Of a stretch of DNA of 64,000 bases, positions 35,017 through 55,007 are shown piece after piece (positions within the stretch are counted from its first letter, which is position 1; each line of letters begins with the position of its first letter). The stretch lies in contig DASYHQ010000018.1 of the NCBI GenBank assembly GCA_035998445.1, positions 558,001-622,000 on the forward strand, in the 5' to 3' direction. The DNA comes from Tepidisphaeraceae bacterium. Lineage in GTDB: Bacteria > Planctomycetota > Phycisphaerae > Tepidisphaerales > Tepidisphaeraceae. The translations under genes were made by a program, and so were the position numbers. Below the pieces are notes generated by a model. It ran no database searches. It was not told the origin of the DNA and was given only the letters and a program-made list of their open reading frames with translations.

Positions 35017-35125
35017 GGAAATGCGGAGTGCGGATTGGAAAACAAAGCGTCACACTTCAGGCTCCGCTCCATTCCGCACTCATCACTCATCACTCATCAC
35101 TCATCACTCATCACTCCGCATTTCC
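35017..35125. repeat. Inverted repeat enclosing a 7-bp satellite
   Basis: GGAAATGCGGAGTG (35017-35030) pairs with CACTCCGCATTTCC (35112-35125). Just inside the right arm, CACTCAT is repeated five to six times (35077-35116). The element runs into the MMPL gene: the last codons of that gene (MRSDE and stop) are made from it. Confidence 0.8.
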
Positions 35126-37665
35126 CCCTTCACCATCAGCATCATCGGCCAGATCAGCAGCAGCGTGGCGGCCGCGCAGGCGGTGACGCCGACGTTGATC
35201 AGCAGGCCCAGCGACTGCACCGCCGGAATGCTCGCGGGCACCATCGAGCCGAAGCCGATGAACGTCGTCGCGCAGCAGGTCAGCAGCGCAGTGGCCAGCG
35301 GCGCGAAGTGTTCCTCCAATTCGCGGCGGTCCCTCGATTGCCGCCAGACGGTGGCGACGAAGATGCCGTAGTCGACGTTGATGCCCAATAGCAGCGGCGC
35401 CATCACGCTGTTGACCAGGTTCAGCCGCGTGTCGGTGATCGACATGAACGCCAGCACGCAGAGCAGGCTGAGGCAGGTCGGCAGCATCGCCAGCAGCGCC
35501 AGCTTCAGCGATCGAAACTGCAGAGCGAGGTAGATGCCGATCGCGCCCAGCGCCGCAGCGATCAGCCGCGGCAGATCGCGCAGCACCGCCGCTTCGACGT
35601 TGGCTGAGATGGGCGTCATGCCAGTGATGGTGGCGCCCGGCATGCCGGCCAGTGCCGGGCCGATTGCGCGGAGCGCCGCGTCGCGCGTCTCGCTGCGGTC
35701 GAGCGGCTCGCGGAAGAAGAGCACCGTCACCGCTTCGCGAATCGGCCCACCGGCCAGTGCGTCGCGCGGCAGCAGCAGCTGGCCCAGTTCGGGGTACCGC
35801 ACGAGCGACGCGGCCGTCGGCGCATCGCCCGGCGACAGCAGCTGCGACAGGAACGTGCGATAGCCCGCGAAACCGGCAGGGTCGAACGAACTGGCGGCGA
35901 TGGCGGTTTGAAAGTCGGCCGTGACGCGGTCGGCCAGTGCTTCGCTCAGCATCGGCTGTCGCTGGGCGACCACGGCGGGATCGGGCACGAGCGACGCCAG
36001 CCCGAAGACGCCACTGATGCCCGCCGCCCGCACGGCCGGCGTATCGAGGCGGCGCTGCACGTCGTGCGAGAGACGCACCAGCTCGTCGGCTGAAGGTGCG
36101 TTCAAATAAATGACGATCGGGCCCGCAGCGCTCTGCATGCGCGTCGCGATGAACCGCTGGGCATCCAACGGCGGGTTGGGCCGCGGGTGGAGCGACGTCA
36201 GGTCCGCCTCGGACCGGTAAGCCGCCCCACCGACCGCCAGGCACGCCGCCGCCGCCAGCAGCACCAACGATGCGGCAGCGATGAAGGTCCGCGGCCGGTT
36301 CGACAGCGCGCCACCCAGCATCGCCGCGACGGGCAGGCGCAGCGTGACGATGCCACTGGTGCCGTTGTCGCGCCACGCCAGCAGCGCCGGCAGCACAACC
36401 GTCGCCGCCAGCCACGAGCCGGTAAGGCAGAGCGTGCCGACCATCGCGAAGTCGCGCAGTACCGGCACGGGTGAGATCGCGATCGTGATGAAGCCGATGA
36501 TCGACGTCAGGCAAGCCGCCACCATCGGCGACAGAAGCCGCCGCGACGTGGCGATCGCGACGGCGGCGCTGTTGGCCTGCCCCTGCCGTCGCGCGAAGTA
36601 GGCGATGACGTAGTGGATCGTGTAGTCGATGCCGATGCCACCGAGCGCCCCACCGACAACGGCAGCGAGCGGCGTGATCGTATCGCGGAAGAGGGCGTAG
36701 GCGCCGAATCCCCACACGATGCCGCACGCCACCGGCGCGAACGCCAAGATGAACAGTCGCACCGGTCGGCGGTAGAGCAGCGCGAAGAGCACCGCCAATC
36801 CGACGACCGTCGACACGACACCGACGATCGAGTCGCGCCGGATCATGGTGGCGCTGTGCGACGCCACCGCGTAGCCACCGGCGATGTCGATGCGCAGCCC
36901 GTCGGCGTTGGCCGCCGCTGTCAATCGTCGCACGGCTGCGGTGATGTCGGTGGCAAAGCTGAAGTCACCCGTCGGCTTCACCCCTTCGATGCGGATGAGC
37001 AGGCTGCGATTATCGGGCGACAGGAACGCGCCGTTGCTGCCGGGCGTCGCGCCACCGCCACCGCCGCCGCCGCCGCCACCGCCCGGCACGTTCAGAGAGG
37101 AGAGCCGTTGCAACAGAAACTCGTACAACCGAAGCGGATCGCGCGCGATCGCCTTGGCCAGTGCCCCGATCGCCGGCCCCGGCGCCGCCAAGGCGGCCTC
37201 GTTCTGCGCGATCTGCTCGCGCATGCCCGCGGGCGACAGCCGCTGCATGACGGCCGCAAACTGCTCGTCGTTCAGGTAGTACAGCCCGGCCGGCACGACG
37301 ACCTTCTCGATGTACTGGCGCTCCTGCGTGCCGGCGCGGTACCGCATACGCGCGATCAACCGCGCGCCATCGGCATCGGTGGCGGCGGTGCGTTGCAAGG
37401 CTTCAGCGAACGCGATGAGCGGCTGCGCATCGGGTTGAGCACCTTCAGGCAGCGTCGCCAGCACCAGCAGTTCGTTGGCGACCGGAAACTGGTCCAACAC
37501 CCGCCCCATCGCCGCTACGGCCGGCTGCGATTCGTCGAGCAATCCCTGGATGCTCGTCTCCGGGCGCAAGCGCAGCATCGACAGGACCGCCGCGATCGTC
37601 AGCAGCGCCGCCAGGATCAACGTGGTGCGCGGGAAGCGGGCCGGCCACTCGGTGAGCAGCCTCAT
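35104..37665 (-). CDS. MMPL/RND-family exporter of the aryl-polyene-like cluster
   Basis: An 853-residue inner-membrane transporter of the RND/MMPL type: one N-terminal helix, a large periplasmic loop, five helices, and a second copy of the same plan. Seen are GALGGIGIDYTIHYVIAYFA and LLGINVDYGIFVATVWR, the paired TM4 motifs with the GxxxDY/D proton-relay aspartates. Such exporters accompany aryl-polyene and hopanoid systems and move lipid-linked products toward the outer membrane. Near residue 198 there is a run of about 11 glycines from a CCG repeat (about 37050-37085). The ATG overlaps the previous stop (ATGA). The C-terminal end comes from a repeat. Confidence 0.85.
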   Translation of the reverse strand: MRLLTEWPARFPRTTLILAALLTIAAVLSMLRLRPETSIQGLLDESQPAVAAMGRVLDQFPVANELLVLATLPEGAQPDAQPLIAFAEALQRTAATDADGARLIARMRYRAGTQERQYIEKVVVPAGLYYLNDEQFAAVMQRLSPAGMREQIAQNEAALAAPGPAIGALAKAIARDPLRLYEFLLQRLSSLNVPGGGGGGGGGGGATPGSNGAFLSPDNRSLLIRIEGVKPTGDFSFATDITAAVRRLTAAANADGLRIDIAGGYAVASHSATMIRRDSIVGVVSTVVGLAVLFALLYRRPVRLFILAFAPVACGIVWGFGAYALFRDTITPLAAVVGGALGGIGIDYTIHYVIAYFARRQGQANSAAVAIATSRRLLSPMVAACLTSIIGFITIAISPVPVLRDFAMVGTLCLTGSWLAATVVLPALLAWRDNGTSGIVTLRLPVAAMLGGALSNRPRTFIAAASLVLLAAAACLAVGGAAYRSEADLTSLHPRPNPPLDAQRFIATRMQSAAGPIVIYLNAPSADELVRLSHDVQRRLDTPAVRAAGISGVFGLASLVPDPAVVAQRQPMLSEALADRVTADFQTAIAASSFDPAGFAGYRTFLSQLLSPGDAPTAASLVRYPELGQLLLPRDALAGGPIREAVTVLFFREPLDRSETRDAALRAIGPALAGMPGATITGMTPISANVEAAVLRDLPRLIAAALGAIGIYLALQFRSLKLALLAMLPTCLSLLCVLAFMSITDTRLNLVNSVMAPLLLGINVDYGIFVATVWRQSRDRRELEEHFAPLATALLTCCATTFIGFGSMVPASIPAVQSLGLLINVGVTACAAATLLLIWPMMLMVKGEMRSDE

Positions 37666-38375
37666 GGCAATCGCTCCGCACGCGGCGGAGGTTCGAACGC
37701 CGTGGGGGCTGCGACGTTCAGCTCGACGTCGCGCAGTTGAATTACGATCTTACCCGATGCGCTCGTGGCGACGATGCGCCCCGGCCAGACCGTCGGCCCC
37801 ACCTGGCGGTACCGGTCGAGCGTCAGGCTGAAGTGCTGCGTGCCGTCGCGGTCGGACATGGTGTAACTGCGGGCCGTCAGGGTCGGGCGGTCGATCTCGC
37901 CGCGAGTGATGAGCTCCTCGTGCCGCGTCACGATCAGCTTCTGGCCGGTCAACTGCACGCTGCCCCCCGCCTTGTCACCGGCCAGCAGTTGCAGCCACTG
38001 GCGGATCGCCCGCCCTGTGCCGGCCGAAGCGCTGCGCACCTGATCGGCCCGCGCATCTTGCCGGGGCAGGAAAAGCCACAAGCCGTCGGGATTCACGGTC
38101 AAGTCAAGCACCGCCTGCCCGAACTTATACGCCCGCACGCGCGCCCGATCGGGTGGCCCGAAGACGAACGCCGCGTCGAACTGCACGGTGCCGCCGTTGG
38201 GGTCGGTCAGCGTCACCGTGCCCTGGCCCGAGATGTCCTGCACCTGCTCGGCCCGGGCGCGCATGGTGGCGAGCGAGGCGCGCGAGTCCATCAGCGGATA
38301 GGTCGGGATGTCCTCCTTCGGCGCCGCGCAGCCGCACGCGAACGCGAGGCAGGCGAGGATGATCGTTCGCAGCAT
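37662..38375 (-). CDS. LolA/LolB-like lipoprotein of the aryl-polyene-like cluster
   Basis: 237 residues with a lipoprotein signal ending LAFACGC. The mature part begins with a helix (ASLATMRARAEQVQDISGQG) and continues as a half-barrel of strands (VQFDAAFVFGPPDRARVRAY, LDLTVNPDGLWLFLP), as in LolA/LolB-type hydrophobic-ligand carriers. Aryl-polyene clusters usually hold one such lipoprotein. The ATG at 38375 overlaps the ligase stop (TGATG) and the stop overlaps the exporter start. A role in carrying the lipid-linked product is inferred. Confidence 0.72.
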   Translation of the reverse strand: MLRTIILACLAFACGCAAPKEDIPTYPLMDSRASLATMRARAEQVQDISGQGTVTLTDPNGGTVQFDAAFVFGPPDRARVRAYKFGQAVLDLTVNPDGLWLFLPRQDARADQVRSASAGTGRAIRQWLQLLAGDKAGGSVQLTGQKLIVTRHEELITRGEIDRPTLTARSYTMSDRDGTQHFSLTLDRYRQVGPTVWPGRIVATSASGKIVIQLRDVELNVAAPTAFEPPPRAERLP

Positions 38376-39853
38376 CACGGTGCCTCCAGCAGTTGTCGCT
38401 TGATCTTGCCGGCATCGTTGCGCGGCAGCGACCGCGCGAACTCGAACAGCCGTGGCACTTTGTAACTGGCCAGGCGTTCCTTGGTGAAGCGACGCAGTTC
38501 GATCACGTCGGGCGGCGTCGCGACATCGCGCGGCACGATGATCGCCTTCAGCCGCTGCACCGTCTCACTTTGCCGTACGGGCACCACGACGCAATCGGCC
38601 ACCTGCGGATGCTGGCCGAGCACGGCTTCAACCTCCAGCGGGTTCACCTTCAGCCCACCGGTGTCGATGAGCAAGCGCACGCGCCCGGTAATGACAACGT
38701 TGCCCGCGGCGGTTAGGTGCCCCAGGTCGCCCGTGCGAAAATGGCCGTCGACCAAGGCCGCGCCCGCCCCCACGTACCCGCGGAACATCGACGGCGCCCG
38801 CACGGCGATCTCGCCTTCCTCGCCGGGGGCGACCGACTGGCCGGCGTCGTCCACGTTCAGCACGCGCACCGATACGCCGCGCATCGGTCGTCCCACACTG
38901 GCGGGTTCGAACGTCTCGGACGATGGCGACCCGAAGGTGACCGAGCCAATCTCCGTCATGCCATACAATTGGCCGACTCGCACGCCGAAGCGCGACTGGA
39001 ACCGATCGTACACCGCCCGCGGCAACGGCCCACCAGCCGAGTAGACGACGCGCAGCGACGGCATCGTCAGCGATTCATCCCCCACCGCCGCCAGCATCTC
39101 GATCATCGACGGAACCGCCGGCCAAACGGTGATCGGTCCGGCCAGCGCCCGCGTCACCTGCGGCAGATCGAGCCCGTCGCACAGGTGCACCGTGCTGCCC
39201 GCCCACAGCGGCGCGAGCAGGCCGTGTTCCAAGCCGTACGAGTGCGACAACGGCACGCACGACAGCACATGATCGCGCCGGCCGAACCCGATCGCCTCGA
39301 CCATGTTGCGCGCCACCGCGTCCAGCGATGCCGCGGTGCGGTGGACAATCTTAGGCTCGCCGGTGGTGCCGGAACTGGACAGCAGCAGGTCACCCCAATC
39401 ACCAGCAATCGGGCCGTTCATCTCTTCGTCAAAAACTTCCGGACTTCCGTTCCAGCGATGAACGTCCCAACTGAGGGGCAAGCACTCCTCCATCGCAATT
39501 CGCGTGCTGACGTCGGCGACGATCGCCGTCGCTCCGGCGCGCGTGGCCATGTTGCGGAGCTCCGTCATGGTGAGTGCAGGCGCGACGGGCAAAACCCGGG
39601 CGCCGCAAGCGAGGATCGCGAGAAACCAAGATGCGAAGTCAACGCGATCGTCGCACCGCAGCATCACGACATCGGTGGCACCAACGCTGGTACACAACTC
39701 CACAAAACGCCCGCGCACCTGTCCCAATAGATCTGCGTACGAGATCCACCGCGAGGACTTAAGCTCGACGTACGCGATCCGGCTCGCGGCCGCATGGCAT
39801 TCGATACGTCGGATGAGCTGAAGGTCGGTCATGGCCTGCATCCACTCATGCAT
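38375..39853 (-). CDS. AMP-dependent acyl/aryl ligase of the aryl-polyene-like cluster
   Basis: A 492-residue adenylate-forming enzyme. Motifs: LLLSSSGTTGEPKIVHR (phosphate loop), PLSHSYGLEHGLL, QLYGMTEIGSVTFG, FRTGDLGHLTAAGNVVITGR (hinge region), and LPRNDAGKIKRQLL with the catalytic C-terminal Lys. The expected reaction is ATP-dependent activation of an aromatic acid and transfer to the cluster's ACP; the chorismatase next door could make that acid. Starts at 39841 and 39832 are also possible. It follows the flavoprotein gene by 43 bp. Confidence 0.85.
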   Translation of the reverse strand: MHEWMQAMTDLQLIRRIECHAAASRIAYVELKSSRWISYADLLGQVRGRFVELCTSVGATDVVMLRCDDRVDFASWFLAILACGARVLPVAPALTMTELRNMATRAGATAIVADVSTRIAMEECLPLSWDVHRWNGSPEVFDEEMNGPIAGDWGDLLLSSSGTTGEPKIVHRTAASLDAVARNMVEAIGFGRRDHVLSCVPLSHSYGLEHGLLAPLWAGSTVHLCDGLDLPQVTRALAGPITVWPAVPSMIEMLAAVGDESLTMPSLRVVYSAGGPLPRAVYDRFQSRFGVRVGQLYGMTEIGSVTFGSPSSETFEPASVGRPMRGVSVRVLNVDDAGQSVAPGEEGEIAVRAPSMFRGYVGAGAALVDGHFRTGDLGHLTAAGNVVITGRVRLLIDTGGLKVNPLEVEAVLGQHPQVADCVVVPVRQSETVQRLKAIIVPRDVATPPDVIELRRFTKERLASYKVPRLFEFARSLPRNDAGKIKRQLLEAP

Positions 39854-39896
39854 CCCGCGCGACCCCGACGGTACGCGGCTCCGTCACGAGGCGACA

Positions 39897-41222
39897 TCAG
39901 GCAGTCACGCCTGCAATGGCCGGCGCGTCGATCTGGGGCAACTGCACCGGCGCCTCGGCCACCAAGCTAAACCGGGCGCGCCGCGGCACCATGGGCACGT
40001 AGCGGTTCAGCACCTCGCACACCTCGAACAGCCACATGCGCCAGCGGAGGGCCCACACGGGTTTGGGGAACACCTGGCCTGCCAAGATCGAGATGATCGC
40101 GCGGTGCACCTGGTGCGGCCCGGTGCCGTGCAGGAACAGCTCGCGGAACGAATGGCGGTAGTACCGGCGGATCAGCCGCCACAGGACGAACGTGCTGCCC
40201 TTCACGAACCGCACGTACGCCGCGTGCGCCTTGGCCGGCGCCATCTGCCCCTTCATCACCGCGATCGCCAGCCGTGCGGCCTCGCAGCCGCCGTTCATGG
40301 CCAGCGTGACGCCGGTGGAGAAGATCGGGTCCAAGAATGCACCAGCGTCGCCGATCAGGAAGAACCCCGGCCCCGCGTGCGGCGAACAGGTGTAGCTGAA
40401 GTCGGCCAGCACGCGGTTCGTCGGCTCGCCCACCGCGTTGCGCATGCGGTGCCGCACCACCGGGCACCGCGCGACCGCCCACTGCAGCAGGCGGTCCGGC
40501 GCGACGTTCAGTTCCTTCACAAAGCTCGGTCGGGTGACGAAGCCGACGCTCGTCTTGGTCTCGGTCAAACCGATGATCCAGAACCAGCCCTCGTCGCACA
40601 TGATGATCGTCGGGTGGCCGGTGGAGTCGCCGGGCAGGCGTTCGACGTGGTCGAAGTGCTGGAAGTAGGCGACCTTTTGCAAATGCGGGTCGTCGAAGTT
40701 CCGCCGTTGGCCCAAATGCCGACCGACCACCGTGCCATGGCCCGACGCGTCCATCAGCACGCGGCCGCTATACGTGCGGTCGGCGGTGGCCACCTCGCAG
40801 AAGCCCTCTTCCAGCCGGTTGATCTTCTTCACCGTCACCCCCTCGCACACCTCGGCGCCGGCCAGGCGGGCCTGGTCGATCAGCATCTTGTCGAAGTGTG
40901 AGCGTTCGATGTTGAAGACCGGCGAGCCCTCCACCAGCCCGTCGGCGAAGCGGAAGCGCATCGTGTTGTGATCGTTGCCCATGCCGAACTCGGCGCCGAG
41001 CTTCGTCAGGTGCGGCAGCTTCTTCAGCTCGTCCTCCAACCCAAGCTCGCGAATGATCGCCATGTTGCGCGGCAAAATCGATTCACCGATGTGGAAGCGC
41101 GGGTGATGGTCCTTTTCCAACACGATCACCTTCAGCCCCGCGCGGGCCATGGCGATCGCGGTCGTGCTGCCGCCGGGGCCGCCACCGATGATGACTGCGT
41201 CGTACTCGGGAGAAGCGTTCAT
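39897..41222 (-). CDS. Tryptophan-halogenase-family FAD protein
   Basis: 441 residues. It opens with the FAD motif YDAVIIGGGPGGSTTAIAMA, then FHIGESILP, equivalent to the GEST/SIP block of flavin halogenases and of the geranylgeranyl-reductase-like family. GDAGAFLDPIFSTGV is the second flavin motif. The halogenase marker WxWxIP appears as WFWIIG, lacking the proline, so true halogenation is uncertain. Xanthomonadins are brominated aryl polyenes and their clusters carry this family; a ring oxidation is the alternative. The ATG overlaps the chorismatase stop (ATGA). Confidence 0.8.
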   Translation of the reverse strand: MNASPEYDAVIIGGGPGGSTTAIAMARAGLKVIVLEKDHHPRFHIGESILPRNMAIIRELGLEDELKKLPHLTKLGAEFGMGNDHNTMRFRFADGLVEGSPVFNIERSHFDKMLIDQARLAGAEVCEGVTVKKINRLEEGFCEVATADRTYSGRVLMDASGHGTVVGRHLGQRRNFDDPHLQKVAYFQHFDHVERLPGDSTGHPTIIMCDEGWFWIIGLTETKTSVGFVTRPSFVKELNVAPDRLLQWAVARCPVVRHRMRNAVGEPTNRVLADFSYTCSPHAGPGFFLIGDAGAFLDPIFSTGVTLAMNGGCEAARLAIAVMKGQMAPAKAHAAYVRFVKGSTFVLWRLIRRYYRHSFRELFLHGTGPHQVHRAIISILAGQVFPKPVWALRWRMWLFEVCEVLNRYVPMVPRRARFSLVAEAPVQLPQIDAPAIAGVTA

Positions 41223-42154
41223 AGCTCAGTCGATCCTTCGATTGGGGCGTATCCTTCGATTTCCACCAGCAGGTCCGGCCGACACAAATCGGCATGCCAC
41301 ACCTGCACATCGTCGCTGAATGTCTCACGCGACCATTCGGCGATTTGCGACCGATCCTCGGCCCGCGGCACGTATATTCGCACCTGCGCGAGGCGCGACA
41401 GGACATCATCCGCATCGCTGCGCGCGACGCCATTGGCGGGCACGGACTTTAACAACGTACGCAGGTGGTCCAGCGTTAGCTCGAACTGCCGCCGCAGCAC
41501 GCCGGCGTGTCGGGTCTGCTCACCGGTGATGGCGGCGGTGCCGGAGATCAACAGCGCCTGTCGCGGCGCGCGCGTGAGCGTCGCCCGCGCAAAGCAAGGT
41601 GGCAATGGGCCGTACCGCGTCGAATAGCGGTACGCCGGCACCTGGTTGGCGTTCTCGATCGGCCGACCGGGCTCGTGCGTTGCCAGGGCGTGGATGACCA
41701 GATCATCCCCATCATGCCCCACCCCCGACGCCGCCGGCGCCAGCGAGGCAAGGCTCGGCCCGAACCACCGCGTCATGGCGGCGTGCCGGCCGGCGTTGAA
41801 GGTCATGTAGCGGTCGACCGCGTCGCCCATCGGGTCGCCAATACCTGGGACGTGGTTCCACATCCGAACGACGTGCGCGTGCGGGCCTGCGGCAATCGCG
41901 CACCGAATAACGTCGTATGCCGAGACGACGCGCGACCGGAACATGTCGGCATCAACGGCGGCGCGGGCGTCGACCACCCGAGCGGTGATCAGCGTGGCGT
42001 CGCGACCGGTCCGGATGGTCAACTGGACCGGCGCGGTCGATTGAACAGTCGATTCCGCTAACCCAACCCACGAATCCACCCACATCGGTGGCGCGCACTC
42101 GCGCGCCGCACTGACGCGAGCGGGCAGCAGAGGTTGTCGGATCACGTTCTGCAT
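41219..42154 (-). CDS. Chorismatase-family enzyme (FkbO/Hyg5/XanB2-like)
   Basis: 311 residues resembling the chorismatases that hydrolyse chorismate to hydroxybenzoate or dihydrodiol acids. Marks: VVRMWNHVPGIGDPMGDAVDRYM for the conserved RxWN-P-I block (split in two by variable residues), AGRHAAMTRWFG, PAASGVGHDGDDL, and ISGTAAITGEQTRHAGV, close to the family's GTASI-GE-ST strand. XanB2 of Xanthomonas makes 3- and 4-hydroxybenzoate for xanthomonadin, so here it may supply the polyene starter. It lies within the operon after the nested repeat. The subtype (which hydroxybenzoate) cannot be set by eye. Confidence 0.78.
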   Translation of the reverse strand: MQNVIRQPLLPARVSAARECAPPMWVDSWVGLAESTVQSTAPVQLTIRTGRDATLITARVVDARAAVDADMFRSRVVSAYDVIRCAIAAGPHAHVVRMWNHVPGIGDPMGDAVDRYMTFNAGRHAAMTRWFGPSLASLAPAASGVGHDGDDLVIHALATHEPGRPIENANQVPAYRYSTRYGPLPPCFARATLTRAPRQALLISGTAAITGEQTRHAGVLRRQFELTLDHLRTLLKSVPANGVARSDADDVLSRLAQVRIYVPRAEDRSQIAEWSRETFSDDVQVWHADLCRPDLLVEIEGYAPIEGSTEL

Positions 42155-42272
42155 GAGAATTCAGAGTCGATGGCAACGCTTCCGGTCCCTCTCCCGGCAC
42201 TCCGGGAGAGGCTAGGTGAGGGTGATTTCGATCTGCTGACGACCCTCGTTGTTCGAAATCGCCCTCACCTAG

Positions 42273-42430
42273 AGCGTGTTATGCACTTTCCAGCTCAGAT
42301 GCTGGCTTGGGTGCCACGGTTTGGTACTCCAAGCCGTGCCGGTACACGCAGACACGGCTTGGAGTACCAAACCGTGGCACCCAGCGTCGTCACGCCTGCG
42401 TTACGGGCCCCCGAAAGCGCCTAACACGCT
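42273..42430. mobile_element. Middle element: 158-bp MITE with 18-bp ends and CTAG duplication
   Basis: The ends AGCGTGTTATGCACTTTC and (reverse strand) AGCGTGTTAGGCGCTTTC match at 16 of 18 positions. CTAG occurs directly on both sides (42269-42272 and 42431-42434), as expected for a target duplication of an IS5-group element. It has no transposase. Confidence 0.82.
42309..42382. repeat. Inner element: perfect 30-bp inverted repeat, GGGTGCCACGG family copy 2
   Basis: Arms 42309-42338 and 42353-42382 are exact reverse complements around a 14-nt loop. It matches copy 1 (28597-28674) with one paired base change (TACTCC/GGAGTA against TACGCC/GGCGTA). It lies inside the middle element. Confidence 0.88.
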
Positions 42431-42482
42431 CTAGCCTCTCTCATGGGTACATGGGAGAGGGACCGGACTTCGCAAGTCTCAC

Positions 42483-44885
42483 CTACATCGTAATCGTTCG
42501 CTCGGGCGCCAGCGAGATCGTGGCCGCGGTGGCGTTGCCGTTCCAGTCGGTGCAGAGCGTGGTGAACCGGTCGACGCGCTCGCCGGGCCGCGCGAACGTC
42601 AGGTCGCTGTTGATCGGTGGCCGGGCCAGTGTGGGCAGCGAGCGACTGAGCATCGCCGCGGCCATGCCGAGCAACGGGCCGGCGCTGAAGGTTTCGCCGC
42701 ATAAGTCGTAGGTTGCGCCGATGCGAGCGTTGGGCGCACCGCGCGACAGCGCGTTCGCCTCGATGCGGTCGATCCAGGTGGCGCAGGCGCTGCTGATGAC
42801 GTGCGGCGCCGTCGGCGACAGCTCCAGCAACCGCGCCAGCGTGCGCGGCAGCAGTTCGCGATCGCCGCTCAGGGCATGGGCGGATTCCATGCGGGCGTAG
42901 GGTTGAACACCGCGTGCGCGGGCCGAGTCGGCCGACTCCATCACGAACGAGACCGCCCCACCGGTTGAGTTGAAACCCGTGGTCTCCGTGAACGGCCCGG
43001 CCGACACGGCGTGCGTCAGCAGGCCGCATTGTTCGTAGGCCTTGTCGATTGCGACGTGGCCTTCCTCACCGCCGCTGACGATCGTGCGGTCGCAGGCGCC
43101 GGTGGCGATGCGCAGCCACGCGAGGCGCAGTGCATCCATGCCGGCGGTGCGGGCTCCGATGATCGTCTGGCAAGCGTTCTTCAATCCCAGCATCAGGCTC
43201 AGCTGGGCCGCGCCACCGTTGGGCACGCCTTCAGCGAACAGGACCGGGTTGCCTGCCAGTACGCCCTCGCGAACCACCTGGGCGTAGTAGTCGTTGCAGT
43301 AGGTGCCTGAGCCGTGCGTGGTGCCGAGAATGGCGCCGGTGTCGGCCAGCAGGTCGGGCCGGTCGCTCAGTGCTGCATCCCGACACGCCATCGACGCCGC
43401 GGCGAGCGTGAACTTCGCGTAGGTGCTCATGCGGCGTACACGCCGGGCGTTCAACAGGTGCTCGTAATCGGCATCAACTAAGGGCGTGCGCTGGCGGTTG
43501 TAATGGTCAGCGCGCGTCGCGTGAAAGAAGGCGTCGTTCCCGATGATGCCGGGAAGAAGGACGCCGATGCCCGTGATCCAAACCTCGCGTGTACCGTGCC
43601 CATTTAGCCCCCGGCTTGCCGGGGGGGTTTTCTCGATCGTGGTTTCCCCCGGCAAGCCGGGGGCTATGGGGGACTGGGGCGTACCCAGCACGATGCACGT
43701 GTTGGCGCCGCCAAAGCCGAGGGACGTATTGAGCGTGGCGTTGATGGTCGCGTTGCGCGCGGCGCCGGTGGTGACGCGCAGGGACGGGTACTCCACATCG
43801 TCGGGGCCGATGTTCGCGGTCGCGGGCGCGACGCCGTCGCGCATGGCCATCGCGGATAGGATCAGTTCCGCCGCCCCGGCGCCGCCGAGGGTGTGGCCGA
43901 GGTGACTCTTGAAGCAGACGACCGGCACGTCGCTCAGCTTGTCGCCCAGCAGGCTGGAGAGGGCCGCGAACTCGGATGCATCGTTGTCGGGCGTGCCGGT
44001 GGCGTGGGCGGCGATCAGGCCGAGTTGGGCCGGTTCCAGCTTCGCGCGGTTCAGGGCCGCACGCATCGCGCGTTGCGCGCCGTCACCGGTCGGATGAGGT
44101 TGCGTAAGGTGATGCGCGTCGGCCGACTCGCCGTAGCCCAGTACGGTCGCCTGAACGCTCGCGCCTCGCTTAAGCGCATCGCTGCGACGTTCGAGCACCA
44201 CGATGCCGTACCCCTCGCCGAGCTTCATCCCCGTGCGCCCGCGGCTGAACGGACGCAGCGGCCCCTCGGCGACCAGCCGCAGCGCGTTGAACCCGGCCCA
44301 GGCGTACTCACTGACCGCGTCGTATCCACCGGCCACCACGAGGTCCGCCTGGCCGCTCTCGAGCAGCGTCATTGCCAGCGCGATGCTACCCAGGCTGGAC
44401 GAACAGGCCGAGCAGGTCGTCGCGGCGCCGCCGGCAAAGCCAAGGCCGGCGGACGCAAGGCGCAGCGTATCGCCGGCGAGGAAGTCGCGCAGCTCCGTGT
44501 AGTTTTCGTTACGCAGGAACCGCCCCCCCGCCCGCATGCCGTGCAGCGTGGTGCCGAGCATGAACGCGCAGCGCGTCGCGTCGTACGGCAAGCGATCGCC
44601 GTCGATCTTCGCATCCCGCAGCGCAGCCGACAGCGTCCAACGCAGGTAGCGCGCCTCGCGCGGCAGGTCAGGCTCGTAATCGGCCGGCAACGGGGGCGCC
44701 TGGCAGCCGTCGCGGCCCGGTGGCAGCGGCGATTCCATATCGACCATCACGCCCGCGCCGCACCGGTTGGCGCGCACGGCGGCCCACGTGTCGGCGACCG
44801 ATAGGCCGAGCGCCGTCACTAGGCCCATGCCCGTGATGACGATCGGTTCGCTGCTGATCTTCAGGTCAGTCGGCACGTTGCTCAT
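42483..44885 (-). CDS. Ketosynthase fused to chain-length-factor-like domain
   Basis: 800 residues, two thiolase-fold domains of about 400 each. The first is an active beta-ketoacyl-ACP synthase: Cys161 in SACSSSLGS, His294 in AHATGTPDND, Lys326 in VCFKSHLGHTLGG. The second (from about residue 435, VWITGIGVLLPG) lacks the nucleophile: GARTAGMDA places Arg578 where the Cys should be, as in chain-length factors. In aryl-polyene and type II PKS systems KS and CLF are separate, pairing proteins; here they are one chain. The linker (residues 405-432) is encoded across a perfect palindrome (43605-43666). The ATG at 44885 lies inside the end of the acyltransferase gene (20-bp overlap). Confidence 0.86.
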   Translation of the reverse strand: MSNVPTDLKISSEPIVITGMGLVTALGLSVADTWAAVRANRCGAGVMVDMESPLPPGRDGCQAPPLPADYEPDLPREARYLRWTLSAALRDAKIDGDRLPYDATRCAFMLGTTLHGMRAGGRFLRNENYTELRDFLAGDTLRLASAGLGFAGGAATTCSACSSSLGSIALAMTLLESGQADLVVAGGYDAVSEYAWAGFNALRLVAEGPLRPFSRGRTGMKLGEGYGIVVLERRSDALKRGASVQATVLGYGESADAHHLTQPHPTGDGAQRAMRAALNRAKLEPAQLGLIAAHATGTPDNDASEFAALSSLLGDKLSDVPVVCFKSHLGHTLGGAGAAELILSAMAMRDGVAPATANIGPDDVEYPSLRVTTGAARNATINATLNTSLGFGGANTCIVLGTPQSPIAPGLPGETTIEKTPPASRGLNGHGTREVWITGIGVLLPGIIGNDAFFHATRADHYNRQRTPLVDADYEHLLNARRVRRMSTYAKFTLAAASMACRDAALSDRPDLLADTGAILGTTHGSGTYCNDYYAQVVREGVLAGNPVLFAEGVPNGGAAQLSLMLGLKNACQTIIGARTAGMDALRLAWLRIATGACDRTIVSGGEEGHVAIDKAYEQCGLLTHAVSAGPFTETTGFNSTGGAVSFVMESADSARARGVQPYARMESAHALSGDRELLPRTLARLLELSPTAPHVISSACATWIDRIEANALSRGAPNARIGATYDLCGETFSAGPLLGMAAAMLSRSLPTLARPPINSDLTFARPGERVDRFTTLCTDWNGNATAATISLAPERTITM
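43605..43666. repeat. 62-bp palindrome inside the KS-CLF linker
   Basis: TAGCCCCCGGCTTGCCGGGGG at 43605-43625 is repeated as its exact reverse complement at 43646-43666. Each arm is also a hairpin (CCCCCGGC-TT-GCCGGGGG). It codes for residues about 407-427 of the fusion protein, exactly between the two domains. Confidence 0.88.
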
Positions 44886-45849
44886 CCTCTGTAAAAGCAG
44901 GTTCCAGCACCAGCCACTGTTGTGGGTACTTGGCGATAAACGTCTCGATGCGGTTCGCCAGCGCCCGCAGCGCAACGTCGACCGGATCGCCACCCGCGAC
45001 GGCGTCGGGGGATTCAACCTCGATCGCCTCGCACAGGTGAACCTCGTACCGCCCGCCCGCGGTTCGCACGACGAAGACAGGGACGATCGGGCTGCCGGTC
45101 AGCTGCGCCAGCTTCACGGGCCCGGTGGGCAGCCGCACGCTGCCGTGCAGCAAGGGGACGACTTGCGACCGCTGGCCCGGCATGGCGCGATCGCCTTGCA
45201 TGACGACGACGCCGTCGGCCAGCAGCGCGTCGCGCAGGCGCACGAGCGACGGCCAGCCGTCGTCGATCGGCGCTTCGTGCACGCCCAGCAGTTGCCGCAC
45301 GGCGGCGCGCAGGCGCTCGAAGCTGGGGAACGGGTCGCGCTTGAAGACGACGTGCACGTTCGATTCCACGCCGCGCAGCGCAGCCAGTCCCACCTCGAAC
45401 GCGCCCATGTGAGCCGTCACCAGCACCGCGCCGCGCTTGCGCTGCCGCTGGGCCAGGTAAGCGGGTTCGCCAATGACGCGTTCGATGCGGCTCGCCAGCG
45501 ATTGCCGCGTCTGCTGCGCGCTGCGGCCGGCGTCGGCGACGAAGTCGTAGAAGTTGGCGACCACGCCGCGCGTGAACCCGCTTTGTTCACTGCGTGACAG
45601 GCGCTTGCCGAAGATGCGCAGCGCGTTGGCGCGGGTCGCATCGCGCAACGGCCTGCAGAACAGGATCGCCAGCCGCACGCCGGCCGGGCGAATGAGGCGC
45701 AGCAACCACGGCGCGCGGGCGGCGACGAAGAAGAAGGTCCGCAGGGCGTTCGTGACGAGCGCGCTCGGGCCGGTGGCCGCGGCGTCGGGGTGGACGTTGC
45801 GCGCGGCGGGCAGGGGCGCGATCGGGATGGCCTGTTCGGTCTGCGTCAT
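44866..45849 (-). CDS. LpxL/HtrB-like acyltransferase of the aryl-polyene-like cluster
   Basis: 327 residues of the lipid A late-acyltransferase type. The catalytic HX4D/E motif appears as HMGAFE within LVTAHMGAFEVGLAAL; later blocks are VVVMQGDRAMPGQRSQVVPLL and GPVKLAQLTGSPIVPVFVV. In aryl-polyene clusters such an enzyme moves the finished polyene acyl chain from ACP to a lipid or glycolipid acceptor. The ATG overlaps the LolA-like stop by one base (TGATG) and its own end overlaps the KS-CLF start. Confidence 0.83.
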   Translation of the reverse strand: MTQTEQAIPIAPLPAARNVHPDAAATGPSALVTNALRTFFFVAARAPWLLRLIRPAGVRLAILFCRPLRDATRANALRIFGKRLSRSEQSGFTRGVVANFYDFVADAGRSAQQTRQSLASRIERVIGEPAYLAQRQRKRGAVLVTAHMGAFEVGLAALRGVESNVHVVFKRDPFPSFERLRAAVRQLLGVHEAPIDDGWPSLVRLRDALLADGVVVMQGDRAMPGQRSQVVPLLHGSVRLPTGPVKLAQLTGSPIVPVFVVRTAGGRYEVHLCEAIEVESPDAVAGGDPVDVALRALANRIETFIAKYPQQWLVLEPAFTEDEQRAD

Positions 45850-46589
45850 CACTGCTGTGGAGCGGGCATCGCATCGCCCACGGGTCGTACGACCTTCGTG
45901 CCGGCCGGCGTGTCGAGCATTAGCGCGTCGTCGCTCAGCCCGCGGTCGGGTTGCAGGTTGGAAAATCGAACGAGCGTACGCTCGCCGTCCGGATCGGTCA
46001 CTTCAAACGCCAGCACCAAGCCACGGTCGGCATCGAGCAGCACGCGCACGAAGCCGACGTATGGCCGCAGCGCCTCCACCGGCTCCAACCGCAACGCCCG
46101 CGTGTTGCCGGCGGGCTCGACGGGATCTAGACCCGCGCCGGCGTCGGGCGATAGCGTGAAGTTTTTGCGGATGTCCTGCAGCGCCGGTAACGGCGACGAT
46201 GCCATCGCGCCCAGGCGACCGTCCACCGGATATTCCTCGACGACCTTCTGCTTCGGATAGTACAGCCGCACCCAGCGCGAGTCGATCGACATGCGGCTCG
46301 GCTCGGGCTCGGCCGTCACCCACAACGTGAGCGGCCCCTTCGCCATCACCGTGCCGCGGCTGACCAGTGGCTTGCGCAGCAGTGGCGAGTGCTTCTCCTG
46401 CACGAAGTCGGCGGTGAGATCCTGGTGTGCCAGCGCCTTGCGGTCGATCGCATCGAGCTCGGCATCGAACGCCGATGCCGGCGCGGTCGCCGGTGCCGGG
46501 GTGCGCGCGGGTTGGGTCGCGTCCTGCGCGTGCGCATGTGACGTGACCGCGACCGACGACAGCAACATTACAAAGAAAAAATGCTTCAT
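45849..46589 (-). CDS. LolA-like periplasmic carrier of the aryl-polyene-like cluster
   Basis: 246 residues with a signal peptide ending near SHAHAQ. The mature protein shows LolA-type features: LTADFVQEKHSPLLRKPLVSRGT (helix then first strands), RWVRLYYPKQKVVEEYP, and a late strand pair VLAFEVTDPDGERTLVRFSNLQ. LolA homologues are a regular part of aryl-polyene clusters, where they are thought to ferry the lipid product over the periplasm. The start at 46589 begins the signal peptide; the frame is open further upstream with no similarity. Confidence 0.82.
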   Translation of the reverse strand: MKHFFFVMLLSSVAVTSHAHAQDATQPARTPAPATAPASAFDAELDAIDRKALAHQDLTADFVQEKHSPLLRKPLVSRGTVMAKGPLTLWVTAEPEPSRMSIDSRWVRLYYPKQKVVEEYPVDGRLGAMASSPLPALQDIRKNFTLSPDAGAGLDPVEPAGNTRALRLEPVEALRPYVGFVRVLLDADRGLVLAFEVTDPDGERTLVRFSNLQPDRGLSDDALMLDTPAGTKVVRPVGDAMPAPQQ

Positions 46590-46678
46590 CGATGCCCAAA
46601 CAGTCGACCACCGATCTTGCCGTTTTCGCGGATCGCGAATCACCAATAATACGGAAGAAGGCGCAGAATTACGCGTTT

Positions 46679-47392
46679 TTACCCAAGCCGCAACGCGACC
46701 GATCCTCGCGCCACCACGGTCCCCGCGACCGTCGCGGCGACGTCGCATTGGTGCAGATCGCCCATCTGGCGCGTCACCGTCGCCGACAGGTCGATCGTCG
46801 CCGGTGGCGCCACGGGCGATTCGAACCGCACGTCGGCGTGCACCAGCATGCCACCCTGCGTCTTCGAGCCGGCGGCCAGGGCGATGCCGGCGAGCTGGGC
46901 AAGGCTTTCGATCAACAGCACGCCCGGCACGATCGGGCGGTTCGGAAAATGACCCGCGAAAAACGGTTCCGACCCATCGACCGTCCATTGCCCCAGCGCG
47001 GTCTTCCCCGGCTGCACGTCGGTTACCTTCGACACGTACCGAAACGCCGGCCCGTGCGGCAGCATGGCGAGGTAGTCGACCGGTTGCGCCGCCGCTGTCG
47101 ATTGCCCCGTCGTCGCCCCACCCGCGGCGCGGTCGCGGCTGTCCTGGATGAACTGGGCCAGGGTGTATACGTCGGCGAACATGGTTCGGCCGACGGCTTC
47201 GTTGGGAATCTTGATGCCGAACTGCTTTTCCACGCTGGAGACCAGCAGCAGGATGTCGAGCGAATCGAGGTCCATCTGGCCCCCGATCAGTGGCATGTCG
47301 TCGGCGATCGTCGCATTGGGGCCGAGCTTTAAGTCACGCCTTAGGATCAACTTCAGCTGCTCTAGCAAGGCACCGTCCACTGCACGGTTCAT
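46679..47392 (-). CDS. Acyl carrier protein fused to FabZ-like dehydratase
   Basis: 237 residues and the first gene of the operon. Residues 1-85 are an acyl carrier protein with the phosphopantetheine serine Ser44 in MDLDSLDIL. After an Ala/Gly linker, residues about 105-237 are a hot-dog-fold 3-hydroxyacyl-ACP dehydratase: FFAGHFPNRPIVPGVLLIESLAQ, with catalytic His148 and Glu162 in FabZ positions. Usually these are separate proteins. The fusion should tether the growing polyene next to its dehydratase. Divergent from the PlsC gene at 47496 with a 103-bp shared promoter space. Confidence 0.87.
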   Translation of the reverse strand: MNRAVDGALLEQLKLILRRDLKLGPNATIADDMPLIGGQMDLDSLDILLLVSSVEKQFGIKIPNEAVGRTMFADVYTLAQFIQDSRDRAAGGATTGQSTAAAQPVDYLAMLPHGPAFRYVSKVTDVQPGKTALGQWTVDGSEPFFAGHFPNRPIVPGVLLIESLAQLAGIALAAGSKTQGGMLVHADVRFESPVAPPATIDLSATVTRQMGDLHQCDVAATVAGTVVARGSVALRLG

Positions 47393-47495: not shown

Positions 47496-48167
47496 ATGCC
47501 CACGAAATATTACCGGATCGGTTGCTATCTGTCGGCGTTCATCAAACAGCAATGCATCCGCGAGACCGTGCTCCACCGCGACCGGTTGAACCTGCCCGGC
47601 CCGTTCCTGCTGGCCTGCACCCACCTCAGCCACATCGAACCGATGATCATGTCGCCCATGGTCAAGCGGCCGATCCACTGGATGGCGCGAATCGAGTTCT
47701 ACCGCAACCGTTTCCTGGGCCCGCTGTTACGCAATACCGGCACGTTTTGCGTCAACCGCCAGGGCGTGCCGGTACAGGCCATCCGCACCGCGATCGGATT
47801 GGCCAAGGCCGGCAAGATCGTCGGCATCTTCCCCGAAGGCGGCTGCCGCAAGGGCAAGCAGTTGGCGTTTCGCGGTGGCAAGATCAAGGGCGGTACTAGC
47901 GCGATCTCGTTGCAGGCGCAGGTGCCGATCATCCCCGTCGCAATCGTCGGCACCGACCGCATGACCGACGTCGAACGCTGGCTGCCCGGCAAGTACGGCC
48001 AAGTATGGGTGGCAATCGGTGAACCCATCTACCCGCCACCACGTCCGACACGAACCCAGCGGCGGGCGGCGAGGCATGCGCTGACCGAACAACTAGAGCA
48101 GACTTACGTGGCGTTGTATCAGGAGATATTAGAAACGACCGGCCTCACCGACGACTACACCCCATGA
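47496..48167 (+). CDS. PlsC-type acyltransferase
   Basis: 223 residues of the 1-acylglycerol-phosphate acyltransferase family. The first block is ACTHLSHIEPMIM, where the catalytic HX4D reads HX4E (HLSHIE). The second, VGIFPEGGCRKGKQL, is the glycerol-phosphate-binding motif, and VPIIPVAIVGTD is the final conserved strand. The ATG at 47496 gives a normal length. The gene starts a plus-strand operon (47496-51309) divergent from the pigment cluster, so a joint role in lipid attachment is possible but unproven. Confidence 0.83.
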   Translation: MPTKYYRIGCYLSAFIKQQCIRETVLHRDRLNLPGPFLLACTHLSHIEPMIMSPMVKRPIHWMARIEFYRNRFLGPLLRNTGTFCVNRQGVPVQAIRTAIGLAKAGKIVGIFPEGGCRKGKQLAFRGGKIKGGTSAISLQAQVPIIPVAIVGTDRMTDVERWLPGKYGQVWVAIGEPIYPPPRPTRTQRRAARHALTEQLEQTYVALYQEILETTGLTDDYTP

Positions 48168-48220
48168 TCGCGCGGCCACCACCGCAACATTGAAATGCGC
48201 CGTACGAACCGACGAACCTT

Positions 48221-48880
48221 ATGAGCGACCCGTTCTACAAAGCCATCCGGTTCAGTGGCCGTCACGTCTTCTGGCTCACCAGCAACAGACGCAGGGTGAT
48301 CGGCGCCCACCATGCACAGCTGCCCGGCCCGTACATCCTCGCCGCCACGCATGGCAGCCCCTACGACATACCGCTGCTGATCTTGCACACGAAACGAAAC
48401 TTGGACTTCGTCAGCAGCGCCGAGGTGTTCAAGAACCGGTTCGTCGCGTGGTTCTATGGTTCGATGAATGCCTTCCCGCTCGATCGGTCGCGACCCGACA
48501 CCTCCGCCGTCCGCATTATCCTCGACCGATTGAAGCGCGGCCGGGCCGTCGCGATGTTCCCGGAAGGCCGCATCTGCAAGGGAAATGCCTCCGTCGTCTT
48601 TTCCCGACGAATCCGGCCGGGCATTGGCCGCATCGCGCAACTGGCGAACGTGCCGATCGTGCCGGTGGTGATCGTCAACTCCATCGCCTACTCGCGGGTC
48701 ATCAACTGGCTGCCGCTGAAGCGGGTCCGTTACGGTTTGATCTACGGCCCGCCCATCGCGCCCGAAGGTGACGCCAAGGCAATCGAACAACAGCTGATCG
48801 ACGCCTACGTCGCTCTGCACGCCGAGCTGATCGCGCAAATGCCCCCCGCGGCTCGCGATGCGGTATCATCCACCGCGTGA
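48221..48880 (+). CDS. PlsC-type acyltransferase
   Basis: 219 residues. Catalytic HX4D is intact as AATHGSPYDIPLL, and the second motif is AMFPEGRICKGNA, followed by VPIVPVVIVNS. Like its neighbour it is a soluble-looking LPLAT without an obvious N-terminal helix. The stop overlaps the GTG start of the helicase gene (GTGA), which implies coupled translation. Acceptor and donor are unknown. Confidence 0.85.
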   Translation: MSDPFYKAIRFSGRHVFWLTSNRRRVIGAHHAQLPGPYILAATHGSPYDIPLLILHTKRNLDFVSSAEVFKNRFVAWFYGSMNAFPLDRSRPDTSAVRIILDRLKRGRAVAMFPEGRICKGNASVVFSRRIRPGIGRIAQLANVPIVPVVIVNSIAYSRVINWLPLKRVRYGLIYGPPIAPEGDAKAIEQQLIDAYVALHAELIAQMPPAARDAVSSTA

Positions 48881-51370: not shown

Positions 51371-51487
51371 CCGGTCCCTCTCCCGGTACTCCGGGGGAGG
51401 CTAGGTGGGGGTGATTTCGAACTGCTGACGCCTGAGGAAGAACAAACCCCCACCCCAACCCTCCCCCGGCGTACCGGGAGAGGGGGC
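51371..51487. repeat. Palindromic element, CCCTCTCCCGG family
   Basis: Begins CCGGTCCCTCTCCCGGTACT and ends CCGGGAGAGGGGG-type, with internal CCCCCACCCCAACCCTCCCC. It shares about 60 bp of left end with the outer element at 42182. It lies between convergent genes, the helicase and the TIM-barrel protein. Confidence 0.78.
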
Positions 51488-51495
51488 AAGAGCGA

Positions 51496-52323
51496 TCACG
51501 CTCGCTGTAGCACGTCGACGGCCGCCTTCATGTCGGCGATGCGCGTCGCTCCGGCTTCGCGTTCGATGACGAGCGGGCCGCGATAGTCGATCGCCTTTAG
51601 CGCATCCAGAAACTTCGTCCAATCCACCGCCCCGCTGCCCACGGGCACTTCCTCGCCCCACGTTTCCCCAGGGCGATCGGAGGGCGTGGCGTCCTTCACG
51701 TGCACCTGACCAATGAATCGCCCCAGCGTTCGCACCGCGCTAATCGGGTCGCCGGCGCCGTAGAGGATCATATTCGCGGGGTCGAAGTTGGCCTTCACGT
51801 TGGGGCGGTTCAGGTCGGTCAGGAAATGGGCCAGATGGTCGGCCGTCTCCTGGCCGGTCTCGAAGAGCAGTTCCACGCCTTCCGCTGCGAAGGCGTCGGC
51901 GACGGTGCGCAGGCGTTTCATCACGACGGCGTACTGCGGCGAATCGCCCGTGGGCAGGAAGCCGGCGTGCATGGAGACGCGCGTGATGCCGAACGCGCTC
52001 TTCCCGATCTTCGCTGCACCAATCGCCCGGGCGATGCGCTCGTCGGCCAAGTCGTCGGGCAGAAAGCCGCCCGTCTCACGGATGCGGTCGATGGTCGCGT
52101 AGTCCTCGCCGGCGAAGCCGATCATGCCCGATGCGATCGTGATGCCCGCGGCCTTGAACGCCGCCGCGTCGCGCGTGGCCGTCGTCTCATCCTCCACGTA
52201 AGGCGACAACCCCAACTGCACGTGCGACAGGCCGACGGCCTTCAGCGCGTCGATGATCTCCCCCGCCGTCGTCGTGCCGAGGGACCAGCTGCAAAGGCCG
52301 ATGTCGTGTTGGTGGATCTGCAT
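51496..52323 (-). CDS. Sugar phosphate isomerase/epimerase-like TIM barrel
   Basis: 275 residues of the xylose-isomerase-like (AP endonuclease 2) superfamily. The expected metal ligands are visible: Glu in LLFETGQET, Asp in KANFDPANMI, His in GQVHVKDATP, Glu in GPLVIEREAG. Such enzymes isomerise or epimerise sugars, keto acids or inositols; the substrate cannot be read. It is the downstream partner of a GT2 gene in the same direction, separated by the palindromic element at 52378. Confidence 0.83.
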   Translation of the reverse strand: MQIHQHDIGLCSWSLGTTTAGEIIDALKAVGLSHVQLGLSPYVEDETTATRDAAAFKAAGITIASGMIGFAGEDYATIDRIRETGGFLPDDLADERIARAIGAAKIGKSAFGITRVSMHAGFLPTGDSPQYAVVMKRLRTVADAFAAEGVELLFETGQETADHLAHFLTDLNRPNVKANFDPANMILYGAGDPISAVRTLGRFIGQVHVKDATPSDRPGETWGEEVPVGSGAVDWTKFLDALKAIDYRGPLVIEREAGATRIADMKAAVDVLQRA

Positions 52324-52377
52324 CGCGTCGCTCGTACCCCGGGCCCGGGCGGCCCGCAGCCCATGTTTTGCATTACT

Positions 52378-52494
52378 CCCTCTCCCGGTACTCCGGGGGA
52401 GGGTTGGGGTGGGGGCGCTTTACCCATGCGGAGGATACCACCACCCGATGAAGACCCCCACCCCTGCCCTCCCCCGGAGTACCGGGAGAGGGGG
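52378..52494. repeat. Palindromic element, CCCTCTCCCGG family, second full copy
   Basis: Left arm CCCTCTCCCGGTACTCCGGG and right arm CCCGGAGTACCGGGAGAGGG are reverse complements. The centre differs from the 51371 copy except for GGGTTGGGGTGGGGG-type ends. It fills the 191-bp gap between the TIM-barrel and GT2 genes. Confidence 0.8.
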
Positions 52495-53304: not shown

Positions 53305-53447
53305 ACGAGCCGGACGCGTGAGCGACGGTTTTCTCACATCCCACGCGCGGTGAAGGTTATTGCAAATGAATGCCGGGGAATCCGTCGCGCGGTGAAGGTT
53401 ATTGCAAATGAATGCCGGGGAATCCGTCGCTAACGCGTCCGGCTCGT
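53305..53447. repeat. REP pair enclosing a 42-bp tandem duplication
   Basis: A forward GAGCCGGACGCGTGAGCGACGG-type REP at the left faces an inverted copy ending GGCTCGT at the right. Between them a 42-bp unit (beginning CGCGCGGTGAAGGTTATTGC) is present twice, exactly, at 53344-53385 and 53386-53427. The right REP overlaps the end of the gene at 53430. Confidence 0.85.
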
Positions 53448-53717
53448 GTGGGTCGTTGGGCGCGCCGCCGCCATGGCCGCCCGCTCGCGCACCTCGGCGA
53501 GCGTGGGGATGACGAACAGCGGCGCCACCGGCGCGGGCAGCGCCAGTTGTTTGTGTGGCTGGAACATCGCGACCGGCGCCTCGGCCTTGGCCAACGCCTT
53601 AGCCGGCGCCTTCGTGCCGTACATCGCCTCAAGCGCCGCCCGACGCCTGATCTTGTACAGCCGGTTGTAGTCCGGGTTGCGCCGCCGGAACTCTTGCGTC
53701 CGCTCGGTGCTGGTCAT
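53430..53717 (-). CDS. Small basic hypothetical protein
   Basis: 95 residues from the ATG at 53717. The N-terminus (STERTQEFRRRNPDYNRLYK then IRRRAALEAMYG) is strongly basic and helical, of a kind seen repeatedly in planctomycete proteins with unknown role and compatible with nucleic-acid binding. The rest is Ala/Pro-rich. The last residues and stop (HTSRTR) are made by a REP repeat, so the original C-terminus may have been different. Confidence 0.5.
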   Translation of the reverse strand: MTSTERTQEFRRRNPDYNRLYKIRRRAALEAMYGTKAPAKALAKAEAPVAMFQPHKQLALPAPVAPLFVIPTLAEVRERAAMAAARPTTHTSRTR

Positions 53718-54277: not shown

Positions 54278-54294
54278 TTACGCGTCCGGCTCGT
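54159..54294. repeat. REP block at the 3' side of the transposase
   Basis: Two forward REPs (ACGAGCCGGACGCGTAAGCG at 54159 and 54222) and inverted partners (CGTCGCTTACGCG...; the last ends at 54294). The last inverted REP contains the transposase stop codon and its final codons. Confidence 0.87.
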
Positions 54295-54811: not shown

Positions 54812-54825
54812 GCCCTCAACCTACC

Positions 54826-55007
54826 ACGAGCCCGACGCGTAAGCGACGGATTTCCTCATCGAGCGTACGAGCCGAACGCGTAAGCGACGGATTTCCCCAA
54901 CGAGCGTACGAGCCGGACGCGTAAGCGACGGATTTCCTCAACGCATTCAAAACGGTTCCATCCGCACGTGGGACATAAAAAATCCGTCGCTTACGCGTCC
55001 GGCTCGT
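54826..55007. repeat. REP block at the 5' side of the transposase
   Basis: Three direct REPs start at 54826, 54867 and 54908 (41-bp steps, units ACGAGCC-GACGCGTAAGCGACGGATTTCC), followed by one inverted REP ending at 55007. It fills the gap between the transposase start and icd. Confidence 0.88.

Follow-up and report, generated by a model that had tools for sequence, protein, structure and literature searches.

Can a planctomycete make an aryl polyene, and can it do so from a gene cluster that encodes no ketoreductase (KR)? The question is raised by nine minus-strand genes at positions 35104-47392 of a 64,000-nucleotide stretch (the window; contig DASYHQ010000018.1, positions 558,001 to 622,000) from a Tepidisphaeraceae genome (GCA_035998445.1; 5.84 Mb, 95.5% complete). 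The planctomycete pigments described to date are carotenoids (PMC12078418), and we found no aryl polyene product from Planctomycetota in the literature searched. Earlier antiSMASH tallies had listed one arylpolyene cluster in Phycisphaera mikurensis and occasional clusters of the kind in other planctomycetes, without analysing them (PMC8882080, PMC11588811, PMC10923784), so the detection is not wholly new. Our additions are the architecture and the finding that it is conserved across the class, a predicted starter and predicted halogenation, and the consistent absence of a KR. The operon probably directs the synthesis and export of an aryl polyene that is primed with 3-hydroxybenzoate, possibly halogenated, joined to a lipid by an ester bond and delivered to the outer membrane, like the xanthomonadin pigments found in plant-associated bacteria.

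Gene content and conservation of the cluster

Eight of the nine gene families were assigned from Pfam and NCBIfam matches; the ninth, a lipoprotein, had no match in either and was identified by predicted structure only. Read from the 47392 end, the cluster begins with a fusion of an acyl carrier protein and a FabZ-type dehydratase (ACP-DH, 46679-47392, 237 aa; Pfam PP-binding 1.2e−5, FabA 2.2e−16), the ACP with its DSLD motif being N-terminal and the hotdog dehydratase with GHFPNRPIVPG C-terminal. Next come a LolA-like periplasmic lipid carrier (45849-46589, 246 aa from the ATG at 46589; Pfam LolA 2.7e−9, with a weak NCBIfam match to flexirubin LolA2 at 5.4e−5), an LpxL-type acyltransferase (44866-45852; Pfam Lip_A_acyltrans 1.9e−24) akin to that of the Aureispira polyene cluster (3e−11), and a ketosynthase (KS) fused to a chain-length factor (CLF) (42483-44885, 800 aa from the ATG at 44885; Pfam and NCBIfam). 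These are followed by an FkbO/Hyg5-family chorismatase (41219-42154; Pfam FkbO_Hyg5-like_N 2.1e−16, NCBIfam TIGR04444 1.4e−43), a FAD-dependent halogenase-family enzyme whose best PDB matches are halogenases (39897-41222; Pfam Trp_halogenase 1.1e−23), an AMP-forming acyl/aryl ligase (38375-39853; Pfam AMP-binding 3.3e−57) which matches ApeH-type homologues at 2e−7 to 5e−13, the outer-membrane lipoprotein (37662-38378) and an MMPL/RND-family exporter (35104-37665; Pfam MMPL 2.1e−20). The lipobox Cys17 of the lipoprotein is conserved, and its AlphaFold model (pLDDT 81.8) has a LolA/LolB fold, with Foldseek matches to LolA3 (8e−10) and LolB (1e−7, TM-score 0.61); the modelled fold would fit the role of ApeN.

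All nine genes are thus present with the identities proposed in the first-pass annotation. The ACP, dehydratase and AMP ligase of aryl-polyene type clusters are all there by Pfam, and the outer-membrane delivery set (MMPL, LolA, LolB-like lipoprotein, acyltransferase) is complete. The annotation's statement that most genes overlap by 1-20 bp holds for five of the eight junctions (1-4 bp, and 20 bp between the acyltransferase and the KS) and is overstated as to the other three, which are gaps of about 89 bp (ACP-DH/LolA), 328 bp (KS-CLF/chorismatase) and about 43 bp (halogenase/AMP ligase).

The gene set is far beyond chance, as all nine genes stand in the same order in a second genome of the window's family (G218) at 38-60% identity. 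When one genome from each of 84,980 species was scanned with the CLF profile, to which very distant CLFs are invisible, 21 relative loci were returned. All of these were from Planctomycetota; we saw no recent transfer from Proteobacteria and no horizontal scatter. The supposition of a likely planctomycete host was borne out: the genome is of Tepidisphaeraceae type, sharing its family with a metagenome-assembled genome of Humisphaera, a genus placed in Tepidisphaeraceae (PMC11266412), and its class, Phycisphaerae, with P. mikurensis. The two domain fusions that had been pointed out are real and are kept in relatives, the KS-CLF in every one where both halves are readable and the ACP-DH in most (it is split in L129, L131 and L134). 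Chorismatase and AMP ligase remain in the operon through rearrangements in relatives. Among family genomes at least 80% complete, with relatedness not corrected for, the halogenase and the chorismatase were each found in 8 of the 9 with the KS-CLF and in none of the 12 without it (Fisher p = 4e−5 for each), and the MMPL exporter in 8 of the 9 vs 1 of the 12 (p = 4e−4). The cluster core is also carried by the cultured pink P. mikurensis, from another family of the class, which makes the product directly testable.

On the plus strand, divergent from the operon, lie two PlsC-type acyltransferase genes, the first at 47496-48167 (likely start 47496; Pfam Acyltransferase 3e−18) and the second at 48221-48880 (2e−20). 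The first adjoins the cluster in L117, L120, L124, L125 and L135, even where the cluster order is rearranged, and the second adjoins the first in L117, L124, L125 and L135. Because they stay beside the cluster in relatives despite the changed gene order, the two genes (47496-48880) are probably part of it.

The fused ketosynthase and known polyene systems

Cys161, His294 and His331 of the KS half are invariant in the homologue alignment. In the CLF half nearly every homologue has an Arg at the position of the catalytic Cys, a substitution shared with Escherichia coli ApeC. The CLF is therefore a full-length KS fold that lacks the catalytic Cys and is partnered by a KS that retains its catalytic residues; the CLF of proteobacterial aryl-polyene systems is about half size (PMC8358021). 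An AlphaFold model of the fusion (pTM 0.92) consists of two complete thiolase folds and a disordered linker (residues 409-430). Its top PDB match by Foldseek, and the sole full-length one among the PDB matches listed, was the KS-CLF of the polyunsaturated fatty acid synthase PfaC (6riw, TM-score 0.78), to which it is only 17% identical. Among the reference KSs, the highest-scoring individual matches were to fused KS-CLFs from type II systems of Streptomyces and Priestia. Given the match to 6riw and these type II clusters, a KS-CLF fusion has precedent.

The KS/CLF phylogeny, which the first-pass annotation had named as the means of refuting an aryl-polyene assignment, gave an intermediate answer. 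KS and CLF group with the polyene/aryl-polyene assemblage, as opposed to FAS and aromatic KSs, yet as a lineage apart. In two KS trees the planctomycete KSs grouped with polyene and aryl-polyene KSs, apart from FabF, FabB, ApeR and aromatic KSs (support for the split 92/99 in the first tree; 99/97 for the fatty acid synthase (FAS)/aromatic side in the second). Within this group they form a long-branched lineage of their own: a joint clade with the canonical aryl-polyene KSs was neither demonstrated nor rejected (approximately unbiased test, p = 0.098). The lineage is thus placed with the polyene KSs in the tree, outside the canonical proteobacterial clade. Judged from sequence, the cluster would work like an aryl-polyene system, its membership of the canonical clade being unproven. 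Plasmid searches returned only distant KSs, which served as references, and a stretch of E. coli CFT073 was used as the aryl-polyene yardstick, with its unrelated genes left out.

In its parts the cluster comes closest to the xanthomonadin/arcuflavin type of Xanthomonas, Lysobacter and Azoarcus. Arcuflavin clusters contain a chorismatase, a halogenase, acyltransferases, a polysaccharide deacetylase, an exporter, LolA, a dehydratase and an AMP ligase (PMC3949708), and xanthomonadin clusters have a chorismatase and a halogenase (PMC3691225). Shared with this type are the chorismatase-supplied hydroxybenzoate starter (predicted for the window), AMP ligase, KS and CLF, ACP, dehydratase, acyltransferases, LolA, exporter and halogenase (absent in Lysobacter), together with a polysaccharide deacetylase in several relatives of the window cluster. 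The window cluster differs in its fused KS-CLF and ACP-DH, its full-length rather than half-size CLF, the Hyg5-type residues of its chorismatase and the lack of a clustered KR. The description as an aryl-polyene-like cluster accordingly stands as regards the parts; a polyene product remains unproven, the more so without a KR.

With the apeA-R clusters of E. coli and Acinetobacter it shares a KS and CLF, ACP, dehydratase, AMP ligase, MMPL exporter (ApeM), LolA (ApeL), LolB-like lipoprotein (ApeN), lysophospholipid acyltransferase and the Cys-to-Arg change known from E. coli ApeC. Unlike them, it has no KR (ApeQ), ApeR, thioesterase (ApeK), ApeG or second dehydratase, its KS is in a separate lineage, and a chorismatase and a halogenase are added. 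The alternative label "flexirubin-like" was not upheld. The flexirubin-type cluster of Aureispira (Bacteroidota) does share the LpxL-type acyltransferase, LolA and a longer CLF, as well as the polysaccharide deacetylase found in the window's relatives. However, no ammonia-lyase homologue was found in the relatives' loci or among the window's cluster genes, so the tyrosine ammonia-lyase of that type is missing; no dialkylresorcinol genes were seen among the cluster genes, for which no genome-wide search was made; and Aureispira has a clustered fabG. PfaC and the Streptomyces and Priestia proteins likewise carry KS and CLF on one chain, with a whole-length structural match in the case of 6riw, but belong to different pathways in which no aryl starter is known. 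A cluster from another planctomycete class (G092; L081 9515-19500 and L156 1-4791) also combines chorismatase, dehydratase, CLF, KS, ACP, halogenase, AMP ligase and MMPL and also lacks a KR; there, KS, CLF, ACP and dehydratase are separate genes and an ApeG homologue is present.

Predicted pathway, ketoreduction and starter

In the pathway that we propose, the chorismatase would convert chorismate to 3-hydroxybenzoate, which the AMP ligase would load onto the ACP of the ACP-DH fusion, and the fused KS-CLF would extend it repeatedly with malonyl units. After each extension a KR encoded elsewhere, most simply the housekeeping FabG, would reduce the keto group and the dehydratase half of ACP-DH would remove water to leave a conjugated double bond. 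The halogenase-family enzyme may halogenate the ring. Its motifs (GGGPGG, a catalytic-type Lys74 and W-x-W-x-I) are conserved in 16 planctomycete homologues, and the last Pro of W-x-W-x-I-P is Gly in the window enzyme and Pro in about half of the homologues; with its motifs intact it is a putative flavin-dependent halogenase. The LpxL-type and PlsC acyltransferases would then join the polyene acid to a lipid, and MMPL, LolA and the LolB-like lipoprotein would carry the product to the outer membrane. By analogy with known relatives the pigment may protect against light and oxidants.

Several observations weigh against this pathway. The first-pass annotation had remarked on the lack of a KR in the window, and this holds more widely: a KR hidden Markov model gave 0 matches among the 1,766 open reading frames of 31 cluster loci (the whole window and 30 others), while the host's own FabG scores 1e−91 with the model. 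The planctomycete FabGs have the FabG-type Phe gate where ApeQ has Leu. The FabG of Acinetobacter baumannii was unable to replace ApeQ in vitro (PMC8041823), and KR mutants of Lysobacter are white (PMC3691225). In addition, a thioesterase, an ApeR-type KS and a second dehydratase are missing from the cluster, and its KS does not fall inside the canonical aryl-polyene clade. The pink colour of P. mikurensis may come from a carotenoid, as this species carries a terpenoid cluster too (PMC8882080).

A KR must nevertheless act if the dehydratase is to be used, because a FabZ-type dehydratase needs a 3-hydroxyacyl substrate. There are three possibilities: the planctomycete FabG is adequate for the task, a KR is encoded at an unlinked locus, or reduction stops short of a full polyene. 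The last of these is disfavoured by the conservation of the dehydratase. A housekeeping FabG is encoded elsewhere in the host genome, beside FabF. No ApeQ-like KR was found elsewhere in four cluster-positive genomes among the best matches of ApeQ-type references; every ApeQ reference had FabG as its best match in Tepidisphaeraceae genomes, and scored no better in cluster-positive than in cluster-negative ones. The KR of the Aureispira polyene cluster also has a Phe gate. We suggest, tentatively and as somewhat less than an even chance, that the Phycisphaerae aryl polyene is the product of a fused KS-CLF/ACP-DH mini-synthase that has lost its own KR for good and borrows the reductase of primary fatty acid synthesis, and that it represents a distinct, lineage-restricted halogenated branch. 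If so, the borrowing of FabG would be what the Acinetobacter system reportedly cannot do. The missing KR thus bears on the sharing of enzymes between pigment and primary fatty-acid pathways, and on why FabG fails in Acinetobacter and may work here.

The same pathway with a dedicated KR at an unlinked locus, overlooked because it is not ApeQ-like, is possible and rather doubtful. Unlinked partners are plausible, since in one relative with a single-contig genome (G211) the homologues of the halogenase (56% identical) and of the exporter (40%) are encoded at separate loci far from the KS-CLF. Reciprocal best hits over 108 short-chain dehydrogenases/reductases (SDRs) of six genomes gave no convincing dedicated KR, nor did the Leu gate residue. 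One SDR of the host genome (G000:C64:7131-7694) had a reciprocal best hit in each of the remaining three cluster-positive genomes and none in the two negative ones, but it scores low against KRs, is 33% identical in P. mikurensis and was followed over six genomes, which are too few. The match of the ApeQ references to housekeeping FabG also speaks against a dedicated enzyme.

A different starter, either 4-hydroxybenzoate, giving an aryl polyene of the E. coli type, or a dihydrodiol acid, giving a non-aromatic head, is unlikely. It gains some weight from the fact that the reaction of a chorismatase cannot be predicted accurately from its sequence (PMC3949708). However, Gly205, Cys291 and Glu298 of the window enzyme correspond to Gly240, Cys327 and Glu334 of Hyg5 by alignment to the PDB structure and within the family, and this Gly and Cys, which are of Hyg5 type, do not vary across the family. 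Such residues mark 3-hydroxybenzoate formers (PMC7170507). The enzyme is hence a predicted 3-hydroxybenzoate synthase of the FkbO/Hyg5 family, CH-II (Hyg5) subfamily, for which the third residue of the rule (Gly164 of Nat-hyg5) could not be placed with confidence.

Slightly less probable still is an aryl-primed lipid that stops short of a polyene, in which one or a few condensations without a dedicated KR would yield a short hydroxycinnamoyl or beta-keto aryl lipid, sent out by the same export machinery. The absence of a KR from all 31 loci and of an ApeQ-like KR from the four genomes would fit such a product, as would the inadequacy of FabG in A. baumannii (PMC8041823). Against it stand the conserved FabZ-type dehydratase, fused to the ACP with its motif intact, the full-length CLF, which suggests chain-length control, and the grouping of the KS with polyene KSs. 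Least likely is a polyene lipid without an aryl head from a highly reducing type II system (ishigamide-like, or as in Priestia), with the chorismatase serving, for example, quinone precursor supply: the best single KS matches and the occurrence of KS-CLF fusions in Streptomyces and Priestia favour it, but the chorismatase and AMP ligase are retained in the operon despite rearrangements, the chorismatase tracks the KS-CLF within the family, and the pairing of a halogenase with a chorismatase is what is known from xanthomonadin and arcuflavin clusters.

Related gene sets and repeats

Several relatives have a polysaccharide deacetylase after the exporter. In four of them (L122 18139-20357, L129 17906-20442, L134 12004-14432 and L136 17593-20050) it is preceded by a protein of about 490-555 aa, which had no Pfam match in the two tested and no match in the window's own genome. 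In the genome G204 (L069 15351-19469, L097 447-11780) a second, more canonical aryl-polyene-like set lies right beside the fused type; it comprises ACPs, KSs, a CLF-like protein, a thioesterase, a dehydratase, a glycosyltransferase, MMPL and LolA. The genome has no chorismatase match but does have a UbiE-like methyltransferase. The window's own genome has a separate type II set on contig 33 (L083 8857-13440) with two KSs, an ACP and two FabA-like dehydratases. We considered this KS pair as part of the pathway and rejected it, as in the tree it falls in a FAS/aromatic/highly reducing set, where it groups with the KSs of a highly reducing Streptomyces system and a KS-beta.

The 328-bp gap between the KS-CLF and the chorismatase is filled by a nested palindromic repeat insert (42185-42470) with 22-nt terminal inverted repeats and a 31-nt perfect hairpin. 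It consists of an element of about 165 bp resembling a miniature inverted-repeat transposable element (terminal inverted repeats starting CTAGAGCGTGTTA) nested in an element of the repetitive extragenic palindromic type. Nearly complete copies of the inner element number more than 25 across the genome, and most of them are 84-97% identical. The insert is incidental rather than a part of the pathway, and it might split or attenuate the operon transcript. Its CTCCCGG..CCGGGAG palindrome has 10 matches in the window vs 0.64 expected, and four more copies of the motif lie at 51380-52488. A perfect 7-bp tandem repeat (CACTCAT, 5.7 copies) is found at 35077-35116, at the 3′ end of the exporter gene, and a group of tandem repeats with units of 21, 41, 42 and 63 bp at 53344-54943.

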